From Arthrobacter sp. Edens01 (lineage in GTDB: Bacteria > Actinomycetota > Actinomycetes > Actinomycetales > Micrococcaceae), in assembly GCF_001307035.1 (NCBI RefSeq), contig NZ_LKIU01000004.1, positions 31,811 through 95,810 on the forward strand: a DNA stretch of 64,000 bases, read 5' to 3'. A program made the position numbers and the translations under genes. Below the pieces are notes generated by a model that ran no database searches, was not told the origin of the DNA, and was given only the letters and a program-made list of their open reading frames with translations. Positions 33,245 through 37,150 of this stretch are shown here, piece after piece; within the stretch, counting starts at the first letter, position 1, and each line of letters opens with the position of its first letter.

Positions 33245-33946
33245 ATGACGGACCTCATCGACACAACTGAGATGTATCTTCGAACCATCCTTGAGCTCGA
33301 AGAAGAGAACATCGTCGCACTGCGGGCACGCATTGCAGAGCGTCTGCGCCATTCCGGCCCAACCGTTTCACAGACCATCGGGCGCATGGAGCGCGACGGG
33401 CTGGTAGTCGTTTCCGGTACCCGTCAGCTTGAACTGACGGATCTGGGCCGCAGGCGAGCCACAGAAGTGATGCGCAAGCACCGGCTCGCCGAACGGCTGC
33501 TGGCTGACGTGATCGGCCTGGACTGGGCGTACGTCCATGACGAGGCGTGCCGGTGGGAACACGTTATGAGTGAGCGGGTGGAGCGCCGTCTCTACGATCT
33601 GCTCGGCAAGCCCACCGAGTCTCCCTACGGAAATCCAATCCCCGGCCTGGAAGCACTGGGCGGAGCGGCCGCCGTTCCTCCCGCGATGCCCTACCAGGAC
33701 CTTCTCTCCGCCGTCGGGACGGCAGGTGCAGGGCAGTCGATGGTCCTGGAACGGCTCGCCGAACCTATCCAGGTGGATCCGGAGCTCCTGACCCAGCTCG
33801 ACGAAGCCGGGCTGCGGCCCGGTGCCACCATCACTGCCGAGGTTGTGGGAGGCTACGTCTCAGTCCGCGTCCCGGGGATCGAAGGCGCCCTTGAGCTTCC
33901 CGCTGAAGTCGCTTCGCACGTGTTTGTCTCCGCCTCCAGTTCGTGA
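33245..33946 (+). CDS. ideR: Iron-dependent regulator IdeR (DtxR family)
   Basis: Fe(II)-activated repressor of iron uptake genes (233 aa). The N-terminal winged HTH (RARIAERLRHSGPTVSQTIGRMERDGLVVV) is nearly the IdeR sequence. Every metal ligand is in place: primary site M10, C102, E105, H106; ancillary site H79, E83, H98. The C-terminal SH3-like domain (GATITAEVVGGYVSVRVPG) is present, which supports IdeR over MntR. AGGAG lies before the ATG. Likely targets in this window would be the siderophore-interacting protein and the heme-degrading protein, but no clear IdeR box was found in front of them. Confidence 0.95.
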   Translation: MTDLIDTTEMYLRTILELEEENIVALRARIAERLRHSGPTVSQTIGRMERDGLVVVSGTRQLELTDLGRRRATEVMRKHRLAERLLADVIGLDWAYVHDEACRWEHVMSERVERRLYDLLGKPTESPYGNPIPGLEALGGAAAVPPAMPYQDLLSAVGTAGAGQSMVLERLAEPIQVDPELLTQLDEAGLRPGATITAEVVGGYVSVRVPGIEGALELPAEVASHVFVSASSS

Positions 33947-34048
33947 CCTTCCGCCGCTGAAGGTAACGGAATGGTATCTTTCAGGCTTTTTCCCCTATAG
34001 TGGCTTCTGACTACAGCAACAACACCGTTAACCGGTCCAACAGCCTAA

Positions 34049-34238
34049 CCCTGCCACTGGACCGCAGGTGCCACCGTTCGCGGGCAGGGGCGGAGGACCC
34101 AACAACCGGCAGCCCAGCTGCCTTGGGGTGAAGCCTCCGAGCACCACAGGAACATCCAGGACTGGATATCCCTGTGCGTCGGGGGCCGAGTTTCTCTACT
34201 CGAATCCGACAGCTAACTTCGCAGGCTTGTAGAGAGGG
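34049..34238 (+). ncRNA. Cyclic-di-AMP riboswitch (ydaO-yuaA class) upstream of the M23 peptidase
   Basis: Conserved blocks in order: CCCTGCC/GGCAGGG closing helix (34049-34055 with 34083-34089), CGGAGGACCCAAC, TTGGGGTGAAGCC, GGGGGCCGAG and CGAATCCGACAGCTAAC followed by TCGCAGGC. TCTCTAC (34193-34199) can pair with GTAGAGA (34229-34235), which overlaps the ribosome-binding site AGAGAGGG. A candidate -10, TATAGT, lies at 33996-34001. This class is usually an OFF switch for c-di-AMP and in Actinobacteria commonly controls wall hydrolases. Confidence 0.93.
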
Positions 34239-34244
34239 AACCAC

Positions 34245-35012
34245 TTGTCGAAGCATGCTGCTTCGGGCAGGCGCAGGGCCGAATCACCGGCCATGGAACT
34301 GCGCCCACGCACCGCTAACCGGTCCGCCGGCAGGCGCCGCGCCGAACCTGCCCACCGTCCACTGGGCGGTTCCGCCCAGAAATTTGCCATCACCGCTGCG
34401 GCTTCCGGACTCGTCCTCACCGTCGTAATGCCTACGACGGCGGCCGCCACGGACCCCGTCATGGAACCGGAGCCCACAGCAGCGGAGATGCCGGTCTCGG
34501 CTGATCCGGATGCGGTCCTGTCCTTTGACCGGGCGGCGCTGACTTCCAAGTTCGATCCCGACGCCAAGCTTCGCGGGCTGACTGTCGCAGGGACGGACGT
34601 CATCCCGGCTGCGGCCAAGGGGACGCTGGCCAACCCGCTGGACTCCGAGCCCGTCCAGACCTCCGCTTTCGGTTACCGGGTCAGCCCGATCACCGGCGCA
34701 GCCGGAGAGCTGCACACGGGTCAGGACTACGCGGCAGCCTGCGGGACCGAGGTGACCGCCGCCGCTGCCGGGACTGTGAAGTCGGCCGGCTGGCATCCGT
34801 ACGGTGGCGGAAACCGTGTTGTTCTCGACCACGGCAACGGAGTGGAGACGACCTATAACCATCTCTCCGCCATGAGCGTCTCGGTAGGCGACACCGTGGA
34901 GCGCGGACACCTTGTTGGCGCCAGCGGAAGCACCGGCGCATCGACGGGATGCCACCTGCACTTCGAAGTACTCGTAAATGGCACTCCAGTCGACCCCCTG
35001 GCCTGGTTGTGA
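34245..35012 (+). CDS. Secreted M23-family peptidoglycan endopeptidase
   Basis: LytM-type zinc peptidase (255 aa) that cuts peptide bridges of peptidoglycan outside the cell. TTG start at 34245 with AGAGAGGG upstream. A basic N-terminus and a hydrophobic segment (FAITAAASGLVLTVVMPTTAAAT, 47-69) form a signal sequence. The C-terminal M23 domain has ligands H157 and D161 (LHTGQDYAA) and H239, with catalytic H206 (YNHLS) and H237 (GCHLHFE). It sits behind a c-di-AMP riboswitch, linking wall cutting to osmotic and wall stress signalling. Confidence 0.93.
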   Translation: MSKHAASGRRRAESPAMELRPRTANRSAGRRRAEPAHRPLGGSAQKFAITAAASGLVLTVVMPTTAAATDPVMEPEPTAAEMPVSADPDAVLSFDRAALTSKFDPDAKLRGLTVAGTDVIPAAAKGTLANPLDSEPVQTSAFGYRVSPITGAAGELHTGQDYAAACGTEVTAAAAGTVKSAGWHPYGGGNRVVLDHGNGVETTYNHLSAMSVSVGDTVERGHLVGASGSTGASTGCHLHFEVLVNGTPVDPLAWL

Positions 35013-35062
35013 CCGCCGCAATACCCTTTCGTGACCTGAGCGTGACATTTCAGTGATGTTGT

Positions 35063-35104
35063 TATATTCTCGTCACCGTGCCTGATTCGCCAAAGATCAG
35101 GCAC
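35063..35104 (+). promoter_or_regulatory. Candidate promoter and leader hairpin of the second riboswitch operon
   Basis: TATATT (35063-35068) is a good -10; a TGACAT at 35043 is close to a -35 but the spacing is short. Directly downstream, GTGCCTGAT (35078-35086) pairs with ATCAGGCAC (35096-35104), a 9-bp stem that could end read-through from the M23 gene or form the leader's 5' end. Confidence 0.45.
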
Positions 35105-35123
35105 TCTCGAACAGATAGCCGAG

Positions 35124-35290
35124 CTCTGCCACTGTCCGAGATCCGTTCGCAAAATCGCATGGCAGAGGCGGGGGAACCAATTTCGGGTTTCGCAAGAAGC
35201 CCTAGGGGTTAAGTTGCCGGACTTAGCAGTCCAGCAACCGGGTGACTCCCATCCGAATCCGACAGCTCACCTCGTAGGCATTGGGAGAGG
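35124..35290 (+). ncRNA. Cyclic-di-AMP riboswitch (ydaO-yuaA class) upstream of the NlpC/P60-like pair
   Basis: Helix CTCTGCCA (35124-35131) with TGGCAGAG (35160-35167), then GCGGGGGAACCAA, AGGGGTTAAG, CCGGGTGACTCCC and the hallmark CGAATCCGACAGCTCACCTCGTAGGC. CTCCCA (35246-35251) pairs with TGGGAG (35282-35287), which includes the ribosome-binding site GGGAGAGG. The architecture equals that of the first riboswitch though the helix bases differ, which supports function. Confidence 0.94.
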
Positions 35291-35298
35291 CAAAAACT

Positions 35299-36105
35299 GT
35301 GTCATCAGTCAATTCTGGCCGCCGTCGTGCAGCCACCCCGCAGGTAAGCACGCTTACCGCACTGTCCAAGGCCGTAACCGCTAACGCAGGTTCGGTAGGC
35401 CGCCAGGCAGCCGTCGTCGTCGCAGCTTCCGGCCTTGTTCTGGCCGCCGGCATGCCGGCCCAGGCAGCTCCGGTTTCCACCGATCGGCAGGCTCTCGAAG
35501 CCACCCCCCTCAACGTTGTGACCTCGAACGGAACCGTCACGGTTTCCGAGCAGGCACCCTTCGAACTTCCGGTCCAGCCGCTGGCCGGCTCCCTCTCCGG
35601 AGCCGAGACCCGCGCACAGATCGCCGCCGCAGAGCAGGCAGCAGCCGAAGAAGCAGCAGCTGTTGCTGCCGCTGCCCAGCAGGAGGCCGTAGCCGCTGCT
35701 GAGGTGGCTGCCCAGCAGACCGCCGCTGCCCCGGCTCAGGCCGCCGGCAACGTCACCACCGCATCTTCCGCTCCCGCAGCGCCCGAGGTTGGCGCCAGCG
35801 GCGTCGCCGCCGGGCTCGTCGCCTCCGCCTACGCCCAGATCGGCGTTGCCCAGGACTGCACCGCCATGGTTGAGAACGCTCTGCGTTCGGTTGGCAAGTC
35901 CGTTGGCGACCTCGCACCGGGCCAGTTCTTCGCCTTCGGCGCAGTTGTTGGCAGCCCGCAGGCCGGCGACCTCGTTATCACCGGCGGCCACGTCGCTATC
36001 TACGTAGGCAACGGCCAGGTCATCAGCGGTGGCCTCAACGGCATGAACACCGGTCTGCACTCCCTGTCTGATCTTCCCGGCGCAAGCTTCGTCCGCGTCA
36101 GCTGA
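35299..36105 (+). CDS. Secreted NlpC/P60-like wall hydrolase (paralogue 1)
   Basis: 268 aa. The start is GTG at 35299, 8 bases after GGGAGAGG. Signal segment RQAAVVVAASGLVLAAGMPAQAA (35-57). A long Ala/Glu/Gln helical linker (100-150) could be coiled-coil. A C-terminal NlpC/P60-like domain has C187 (IGVAQDCTAMVENAL) and H231 (TGGHVAIYVGNGQVISGG). The usual YDCSGLV around the nucleophile is altered to QDCTAMV, and the domain is short, so activity is probable but unproven. It lies behind a c-di-AMP riboswitch and 36 bases before its paralogue. Confidence 0.85.
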   Translation: MSSVNSGRRRAATPQVSTLTALSKAVTANAGSVGRQAAVVVAASGLVLAAGMPAQAAPVSTDRQALEATPLNVVTSNGTVTVSEQAPFELPVQPLAGSLSGAETRAQIAAAEQAAAEEAAAVAAAAQQEAVAAAEVAAQQTAAAPAQAAGNVTTASSAPAAPEVGASGVAAGLVASAYAQIGVAQDCTAMVENALRSVGKSVGDLAPGQFFAFGAVVGSPQAGDLVITGGHVAIYVGNGQVISGGLNGMNTGLHSLSDLPGASFVRVS

Positions 36106-36141
36106 CGCTCAGTTGCCAGAACCAACGGAGAAAACCCCTAA

Positions 36142-36915
36142 ATGACCACGTCAACTGAGCGTGCGCGCCACCGCGCGCCTGTACAGCGCAACAACTCCCT
36201 GTCCGCCCTTGCTGACGCTGTCAGCAGTGCCGGCAACGTTGGCCGCCAGGCAGCCGTCATTGCAGCCGCTTCCGGCCTCGTCCTGAGCACGGGCGTTGCA
36301 GCAAACGCTGCGGGCCCTGAAGTTTCCCGTGACGTGCAGACCAGCAAGCTGGACCTGTCTTCGATCCCGCTGCAGGTTCCGGCCGACGCAATCGGTCCTG
36401 ACCTGACACTTACACCCGTTCCGGGCGTAACCGTGGCTCCCGAAGTTGCTGTCCAGTCCCAGGAAGTAGCCGTCCAGGCAACTGAGGAAACCGTGCAGGC
36501 GGCTCCCGCAGCCAACGGCACTTCCACGGCAGCTCCGGCCGCCGCGCCGGTTGCTTCCCCGGCTGCCGCTCCCGCAGCTGCCTCCGGTACCGCCGCAACC
36601 ATCGCAGCTGCTGCATACGCACAGCTTGGTGTTATGCAGGACTGCACCATGCTTGCCACAAACGCACTGGCTGCTGCCGGCATCAACTTCCACGACTGGC
36701 CTGCCGGCTACCTGTCCCTGGGCCGCACGGTGAGTGCTGCCGAGGCAATTCCCGGCGACCTGATCTACTACGCCGACGGCGGCATGGGCGTTGCCCACAT
36801 CGCTGTCTACGTTGGTAACGGTCAGGCCGTCCACGGAGGGTTCTTCGGCAACCAGACCGTTGTTGCTCCCGCTGAGCTTGGTTCCGGCGGAGTTTACATC
36901 CGCGTAGGCGGCTAA
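36142..36915 (+). CDS. Secreted NlpC/P60-like wall hydrolase (paralogue 2)
   Basis: 257 aa, a tandem copy of the preceding gene. Same signal segment (GNVGRQAAVIAAASGLVLSTGVAANA), a Pro/Ala/Val-rich linker in place of the helical one, and a matching C-terminal domain with C168 (LGVMQDCTMLATNAL) and H219 (GVAHIAVYVGNGQAVHGGF). GDLIYYADGG before the His is standard for NlpC/P60. The shared QDCT nucleophile motif marks a distinct subfamily. Co-transcribed and therefore also under the riboswitch; a strong terminator follows. Confidence 0.86.
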   Translation: MTTSTERARHRAPVQRNNSLSALADAVSSAGNVGRQAAVIAAASGLVLSTGVAANAAGPEVSRDVQTSKLDLSSIPLQVPADAIGPDLTLTPVPGVTVAPEVAVQSQEVAVQATEETVQAAPAANGTSTAAPAAAPVASPAAAPAAASGTAATIAAAAYAQLGVMQDCTMLATNALAAAGINFHDWPAGYLSLGRTVSAAEAIPGDLIYYADGGMGVAHIAVYVGNGQAVHGGFFGNQTVVAPAELGSGGVYIRVGG

Positions 36916-36945
36916 TAGCTTTACGGACTCTGACACAGTTCTATG

Positions 36946-36975
36946 AAGGGCCCTGCTGGGAACAGCAGGGCCCTT
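36946..36975 (+). terminator. Intrinsic terminator after the NlpC/P60-like operon
   Basis: AAGGGCCCTGCTG (36946-36958), GGAA loop, CAGCAGGGCCCTT (36963-36975): a perfect 13-bp stem. Only a modest T-rich stretch (CGCCGTTTCC) follows. Confidence 0.88.
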
Positions 36976-37150
36976 CGCCGTTTCCAATGCTGCCCCGCGG
37001 CATGCTGAAGCCTCCGCCCAACTGTTCTCGTGCCCTTTAAATAGCGGGATCGGGCTTGGCGGCTTACCCTTGCAGTGAACATTCGAAGTACCGCGGCGCC
37101 GGTAAACACGATTTCTCTCCGGCTGGCGGGTGGGGCGAAGAGGAACGTGC

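Follow-up and report, generated by a model that had tools for sequence, protein, structure and literature searches.

Shine-Dalgarno sequences within the pseudoknot helix of two c-di-AMP riboswitch leaders of Arthrobacter sp. Edens01 and of their relatives

In a 64,000-nt stretch (the window) of the 3.64 Mb genome of Arthrobacter sp. Edens01, two successive genes for cell-wall hydrolases, the first encoding an M23 peptidase and the second an NlpC/P60 family protein, are each preceded by a cyclic di-AMP (c-di-AMP) riboswitch aptamer of the ydaO/yuaA class (Rfam RF00379). In both leaders, loop L5 of the aptamer is complementary to the stretch right after P1, and the distinctive trait of these leaders is that the latter strand of the pseudoknot doubles as the Shine-Dalgarno (SD) sequence of the gene. 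Judging from sequence comparisons, we suggest, with a probability of roughly 0.8, that the pseudoknot helix exerts translational OFF control over both hydrolase genes.

In the proposed mechanism, a single aptamer would suffice and a separate expression platform would not be needed. Binding of c-di-AMP would produce a compact fold that sets L5 against the strand after P1 and stabilises the pseudoknot. Since this strand overlaps the SD sequence 7–11 nt before the start codon, the ribosome would then be excluded and the cell-wall hydrolase would not be made. When c-di-AMP is low, the pseudoknot would be weaker and the 16S rRNA tail could compete for the same strand.

The pseudoknot helix in the two leaders

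The 5' strand of the helix is loop L5, which in both leaders lies directly 5' of the P5 3' strand and the CGAATCCGACAGCT / CGAATCCGACAGC core. In leader 1, TCTCTAC (34193–34199) pairs with GTAGAGA (34229–34235), and nine pairs are formed (34191–34199 with 34229–34237) if G-U is allowed; in leader 2, CTCCCA pairs with TGGGAG. These pairings, with the SD sequence included in the 3' strand, had been given in a preliminary description of this DNA, and direct reading of the sequence finds them exact. A search confined to the two boxes returns 8 contiguous pairs in leader 1 and 6 in leader 2. In 20,000 shuffles of the boxes per leader, an equally good helix arises with P = 0.035 and P = 0.016, respectively; these values are weak singly, and the weight rests on the relatives.

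The same description spoke of a covarying helix common to both leaders. Pairing is indeed kept in both, but when the downstream strand is aligned, the two helices fall into different registers. A comparison of these two leaders alone therefore gives kept pairing and not column-by-column covariation.

An identical search of the crystallised ydaO RNA 4QLM (sequence from PMC5393176) finds CUCCUUCG and CGAAGGAG at the equivalent two places, forming 8 bp. By this match, the helix appears to be the known pseudoknot of the ydaO class (L5 with the strand after P1), which is described as stable (PMC5393176). The consensus line of RF00379 leaves the 3' strand unpaired, so the pairing is invisible from the Rfam model.

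Start codons, SD sequences and terminators in relatives

For the comparative analysis, we used 331 sequence records (the window and loci L001–L330) that comprised the pattern-scan matches listed, the best-scoring loci of genome searches and 80 hand-picked places; owing to the best-scoring loci and the hand picking, this sample leans to strong matches. They yielded 375 sites in 319 records, from which 360 unique sites in 312 records were retained. The 12 records without a site passing the three-motif filter (L083, L086, L116, L121, L128, L142, L146, L152, L160, L170, L176 and L177) stem from the pattern scan; some are perhaps chance matches, while others may be real aptamers that were missed. 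The sites were divided into six groups (Table 1), using record names for some loci and kinship for the remainder.

Table 1. Pseudoknot strand, start codon, SD sequence, terminator-like hairpins and strand-swap tests by group. Near start, start codon at most 20 nt from the pseudoknot 3' strand; SD overlap, at least 3 nt among near-start sites; swap, wins/ties/losses of true partners against the three most similar sites (sign p in brackets).
Group	Near start	SD overlap	Repeats of strand pairs removed: near start; overlapping	Terminator-like hairpins	Same, shuffled	Permutation z	z, Watson-Crick only	Swap	Swap counting G-U
Family	113/122	99/113	83/91; 70	4/122	2.6%	7.6	9.2	53/16/23 (0.0008)	49/7/35
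Rest of order	46/48	34/46	45/47; 34	1/48	0%	3.8	3.3	22/2/22	23/1/22
Rest of class	86/100	46/86	72/85; 42	2/100	2%	7.8	7.8	55/6/24 (0.0006)	58/4/23
Other classes of phylum	7/26	3/7	5/22; 3	8/26	7%	4.4	4.7	14/0/8 (0.29)	
Bacillota	13/53	11/13	13/53; 11	38/53	13%	7.9	7.5	36/1/16 (0.008)	41/0/12
Other phyla	0/11		0/11	6/11	13%	3.9			

Within the three groups of the class (the family, the rest of its order and the rest of its class), 245 of the 270 sites have a start codon close to the pseudoknot strand. Shuffled downstream sequence gives a near start in 0.8 to 10% of cases over the groups, and in 8–10% in these three. The start was taken as the first ATG, GTG or TTG past the strand whose frame stays open for 100 codons or more, or for 55 or more at the edge of a record, a rule that fails for some loci (L131, L162). 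Overlap of the strand with the SD sequence by at least 3 nt is partly geometric, because a strand located 5–15 nt before a start codon is necessarily the SD site. Five sites of Mycobacterium and Nocardia carry CCTCTC/GAGAGG or CCTCTTG/CGAGAGG; in these, the SD sequence and the strand share 5 nt.

A minority of Bacillota also use the pseudoknot strand as SD sequence, for example the Selenomonadaceae loci L104 and L110 and the Selenomonas locus L169. Overlap with the ribosome-binding site (RBS) is thus not confined to the actinomycete class, as 13 of the 53 Bacillota sites have a near start and 11 of these have the SD overlap.

Terminators were sought with a simple detector of hairpins within 280 nt of a site, which requires T-rich runs. 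In the window, the region 33900–37100 has no terminator-like site, compared with 2.3 expected by chance. For the class as a whole, 7 of the 270 sites are followed by one; since T-rich runs are rarer in G+C-rich genomes, a low count in such genomes says less than a comparison with the shuffles alone would imply. Within Bacillota, 35 of the 40 sites whose start codon is not near have a terminator-like hairpin, as against 3 of the 13 where it is near. Two layouts can be told apart: a pseudoknot followed by a terminator, or a pseudoknot strand that serves as SD sequence. A terminator-type ydaO switch, as known for kimA of B. subtilis, was considered for the window leaders and rejected, given the lack of terminator-like sites and the distances of 7 and 11 nt from strand to start codon.

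The preliminary description had favoured control of translation rather than of termination. The larger sample agrees with it: conservation of the helix, its pairing above that of permuted strands (see below) and the presence of the SD sequence within it, combined with the scarcity of terminators, point to translational control.

Covariation of the helix

For permutation, 308 unique strand pairs without N were used, with 500 permutations per group. True partners paired better than permuted ones in all six groups, and in none of the 500 permutations was the observed mean reached. This procedure leaves shared ancestry in, and a stricter null was therefore obtained by swapping the strand with those of the three most similar sites. 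With the three groups of the class taken together, true partners won 136 times, with 24 ties and 63 losses (p 2.5e-7), or 138/9/75 when G-U was counted. The test of covariation in leaders of the family, which the preliminary description had proposed, thus gave a modest signal there, and none in the rest of the order (Table 1).

Over long distances, the helix appears to be real and compensating, as illustrated by the pairs CCTGAC/GTCAGG, CTCACG/CGTGAG, TCTCATG/CATGAGA and CTCTCTGA/TCAGAGAG. A CUC/GAG core that is widely shared is probably fixed by the SD sequence, which would limit the covariation visible among close relatives. Column mutual information (MAFFT alignment) placed inter-strand pairs at ranks 4, 10, 11 and 16 of 2775 in a pooled set of the other classes of the phylum, Bacillota and other phyla. 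For the class, such column statistics are mostly uninformative, since the linker varies in length and the 3' strand is out of register; a check at fixed register found about 71% of cells paired at best.

When helices were sought freely across wide flanks, true partners could not be told apart from swapped ones. After this result, the search boxes were narrowed to L5 and to 20 nt past P1, on account of the known ydaO topology.

Energetics and alternative folds

The estimates in this section treat a knotted RNA as nested and should be given little weight. The predicted duplex energies of the pseudoknot and of the anti-SD duplex are comparable in magnitude: they are, respectively, -9.8 and -9.4 kcal/mol in leader 1, -12.5 and -8.1 kcal/mol in leader 2, and -9.6 kcal/mol for both in a third RF00379 copy, which precedes a LysM-NlpC/P60 gene at another place in the genome. 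When folding is nested and the pseudoknot is left out, the pairing probability of the SD strand goes in largest part to the linker and downstream sequence (26–28%), with 6–20% for L5 and the remainder spread. These nested folds were examined for another consistent partner of the SD strand, and no single one stood out; the spread of its pairing supports no specific alternative structure.

Weighing of the translational interpretation

Several observations weigh against the proposed translational control. The SD sequence is not always within the helix: 17 leaders have AGGAAGG or GGGAAGG as pseudoknot strand, with the SD sequence AAAGGAG directly after it and not inside. In the rest of the order, swapped strands of near relatives won as often as they lost, and in the family they also performed almost as well as true partners, which means that much of the match is the shared CUC/GAG core. 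Column mutual information for the class contains one plausible pseudoknot pair among the 22 best (rank 11 of 2790). In nested folds without the pseudoknot, the SD strand is on average 30–37% unpaired; being mostly paired, it may not be fully open when the ligand is absent. As for published systems, the Streptomyces rpfA riboswitch is reported to terminate transcription (PMC10117811, citing St-Onge and Elliot 2017), and the riboswitch sequence of C. glutamicum reduced transcript levels regardless of c-di-AMP (PMC9960051).

The 17 leaders with an abutting SD sequence (among them L042, L047, L228, L232, L249 and L250) come from one genus of the class, presumably Streptomyces, and occlusion of the SD sequence by contact with the helix is possible there. 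All six proteins scanned behind leaders of the AGGAAGG type are M23 peptidases; the genes behind three similarly shaped leaders are of the NlpC/P60 family. The possibility that rpfA is the gene behind these leaders was ruled out by the Pfam matches of the six.

The strongest alternative, which we nevertheless consider improbable, is transcriptional OFF control, where c-di-AMP would bring about premature termination, non-canonical or factor-dependent, within the aptamer or shortly past it; the pseudoknot would then be no more than an element of the aptamer fold, and the SD overlap would be incidental. Published ydaO switches of B. subtilis and B. thuringiensis act by termination, a survey based on read coverage reports it for ydaO-yuaA loci (PMC12121620), and the rpfA switch of S. 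coelicolor is reported to terminate in vitro (PMC10117811, PMC9960051). Moreover, the pseudoknot is also found where terminators are common (46 of the 53 Bacillota sites have a helix of 5 bp or more) and so is not specific to translational leaders. However, the window region and nearly all sites of the class are devoid of terminator-like hairpins, the start codon in the class almost always follows closely on the pseudoknot strand, and the mRNA of the C. glutamicum reporter was unaffected by c-di-AMP (PMC9960051).

It is far less probable that the complementarity is a compositional constraint only, produced by a purine-rich SD sequence and a pyrimidine-rich loop with no functional helix. The weak single P values of the window helices, the even outcome of strand swapping in the rest of the order and the failure of the wide-flank search speak for such a constraint, but the permutations favour true partners in each of the six groups, helices with differing flanks still pair, and the same helix is present in the crystallised RNA, where it is called stable (PMC5393176). 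Least probable of all is an ON switch, in which another structure would hide the SD sequence and c-di-AMP would free it: the strand is 63–70% paired on average in nested folds without the pseudoknot, but it has no single consistent partner there and c-di-AMP riboswitches are described as OFF switches (PMC9960051).

Comparison with published systems

The preliminary description had noted that the class is best known for transcriptional control. The helix and its translational role have been published before, and what we describe is not a new mechanism: the pseudoknot matches that of the crystallised RNA, and two publications precede our proposal (Reich et al. 2023, PMC9960051; PMC10907184). Reich et al. 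found that the riboswitch of C. glutamicum nlpC (cg2402) represses mCherry at raised c-di-AMP with the reporter mRNA unchanged, and that in an artificial operon only the first reporter is repressed, the second, downstream one being unaffected. They suggested a pseudoknot of CTCC with the GGAG of the RBS, and stated that translational action had not previously been shown for the class of riboswitches (PMC9960051). They also note that actinobacterial c-di-AMP riboswitches precede cell-wall genes, as the window leaders do with M23 and NlpC/P60 genes downstream. A 2024 review lists ydaO among the riboswitch classes whose docking occludes the RBS (PMC10907184).

The window leaders and that of C. 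glutamicum nlpC have in common a ydaO-type aptamer before an NlpC/P60 peptidase, the lack of a canonical terminator, the complementarity of CTCC to the GGAG of the RBS and a translational OFF control, deduced in C. glutamicum from reporters and proposed for the window. The two differ in that the C. glutamicum model has CTCC form a hairpin with a GGAG further upstream when ligand is absent, whereas the SD strand of the window leaders, which alone was examined for this, has no consistent alternative partner; the available part of that report contains no comparative test (PMC9960051). In "interdomain docking" switches (preQ1-III, cobalamin, ydaO and yjdF), the ligand docks a downstream strand onto the aptamer and the RBS is occluded; the window leaders resemble them, as their helix overlaps the SD sequence by 5 nt in both cases, although the excerpt of the review gives neither an actinobacterial c-di-AMP example nor a distribution (PMC10907184). 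In the SAM/SAH riboswitch, the SD sequence is likewise an integral strand of a ligand-stabilised pseudoknot helix, but the pseudoknot is of the H type and the ligand is another one (PMC7367207). The S. coelicolor rpfA riboswitch differs by its reported termination in vitro (PMC10117811, PMC9960051). Relative to RF00379 itself, the window leaders share the covariance match over the whole model, the conserved core and the placing of the pseudoknot as in 4QLM, and they depart from it in that the strand left unpaired in the consensus overlaps the SD sequence and no terminator-like site follows.

What is added here is the distribution. No comparative analysis of SD overlap in c-di-AMP riboswitches was found in a literature search covering titles and abstract openings, with subscription papers, including the 2013 paper on the class, outside its scope. 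The sequences suggest that an SD sequence in the pseudoknot, with no terminator-like site, is the usual layout among the sampled members of the actinomycete class. One can suppose, at about even odds, that this class dropped the terminator and uses the pseudoknot strand as SD sequence (or an SD sequence directly after it, in the M23 leaders presumed to be of Streptomyces), so that translational control of cell-wall hydrolases would be the rule in the class and termination the rule in Bacillota. If this is true, the transcriptional account of Streptomyces rpfA would be incomplete. The distribution turns one published C. glutamicum result into an expectation that can be tested across the whole class. 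The place of the SD sequence relative to the aptamer's own pseudoknot is a simple structural difference and may be relevant to the conflict between reports of translational and of transcriptional action.

The locus and its genes

Both window matches to RF00379 exceed the gathering score of 38 bits and span the whole model (1–134), and each leader comprises, by its sequence match, a single aptamer that is expected to bind c-di-AMP (Table 2). A diadenylate cyclase (c-di-AMP cyclase) domain has one match in the genome. Aptamer 1 stands out by its length: in two peripheral stem-loops, where the model has 4 and 6 nt, the Rfam alignment passes over 33 and 42 nt. Among plasmids, three records match this DNA, all of them from Arthrobacter and covering 3 to 9% of the query.

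Table 2. Coordinates of the features in the window.
Feature	Position	Strand	Remarks
c-di-AMP (ydaO/yuaA) riboswitch aptamer 1	34032..34243	+	RF00379, 67.6 bits, E 1.6e-13; long peripheral insertions
Leader 1 pseudoknot 5' strand, loop L5 (TTTCTCTAC)	34191..34199	+	Watson-Crick core TCTCTAC at 34193-34199
Leader 1 pseudoknot 3' strand (GTAGAGAGG)	34229..34237	+	overlaps SD AGAGGG (best anti-SD match) by 5 nt
M23 peptidase gene (gene 1)	34245..35012	+	Pfam PF01551, E 1.7e-31; TTG start 7 nt past pseudoknot strand
Sigma-70-like promoter match, weak	35042..35070	+	gap before leader 2; 1 found, 0.5 expected in shuffles
c-di-AMP riboswitch aptamer 2	35138..35294	+	RF00379, 56.1 bits, E 2.6e-10
Leader 2 pseudoknot 5' strand, loop L5, CTCCCA	35246..35251	+	anti-SD look-alike; read from sequence
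Leader 2 pseudoknot 3' strand, TGGGAG	35282..35287	+	contains SD GGGAG (best anti-SD match), 5-nt overlap
NlpC/P60 family gene (gene 2)	35299..36105	+	Pfam PF00877, E 8e-06; GTG start 11 nt past pseudoknot strand
Second NlpC/P60 gene (third gene of cluster)	36142..36915	+	Pfam PF00877, E 2.1e-10; ATG start; plain GGAG at 36127-36130

The riboswitches had been called tandem, which holds for two successive genes with aptamer leaders but not for two aptamers in one leader. A double-aptamer tandem riboswitch was ruled out, as every aptamer has its own gene and the two are about 1.1 kb apart; published tandem c-di-AMP riboswitches also have two aptamers close together, but these doublets mostly have a terminator between the aptamers (PMC9481103). 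The interval given earlier ends at 36915 and takes in the third gene, whose leader has no Rfam riboswitch match. This gene, with a plain GGAG and no riboswitch found, would behave differently under the two models, translational and transcriptional, and is predicted to escape c-di-AMP control if that control acts on translation.

Each of the 29 genomes searched in the genus has three aptamer copies, including a pair separated by about 1.1 kb. Among 53 sites of the genus, the 28 leaders of the gene 1 (M23) type have a TTG start (25 by pattern, 3 by reading the sequence), and the other 25 have GTG (23) or TTG (2, one being the third copy of the window genome). Across the genus, both window genes retain TTG or GTG as start codon in a conserved frame, with spacers that vary.

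Of 30 downstream proteins picked from relatives, 28 were scanned (one frame was cut and one had no start by the rule); M23, NlpC/P60, SLT or Rpf-type transglycosylase domains were present in 24 of them, and 4 gave no Pfam match. Directly 5' of the cluster, at 33245–33946, lies a gene for a DtxR-type iron-dependent repressor (Pfam PF02742, PF01325 and a FeoA domain).

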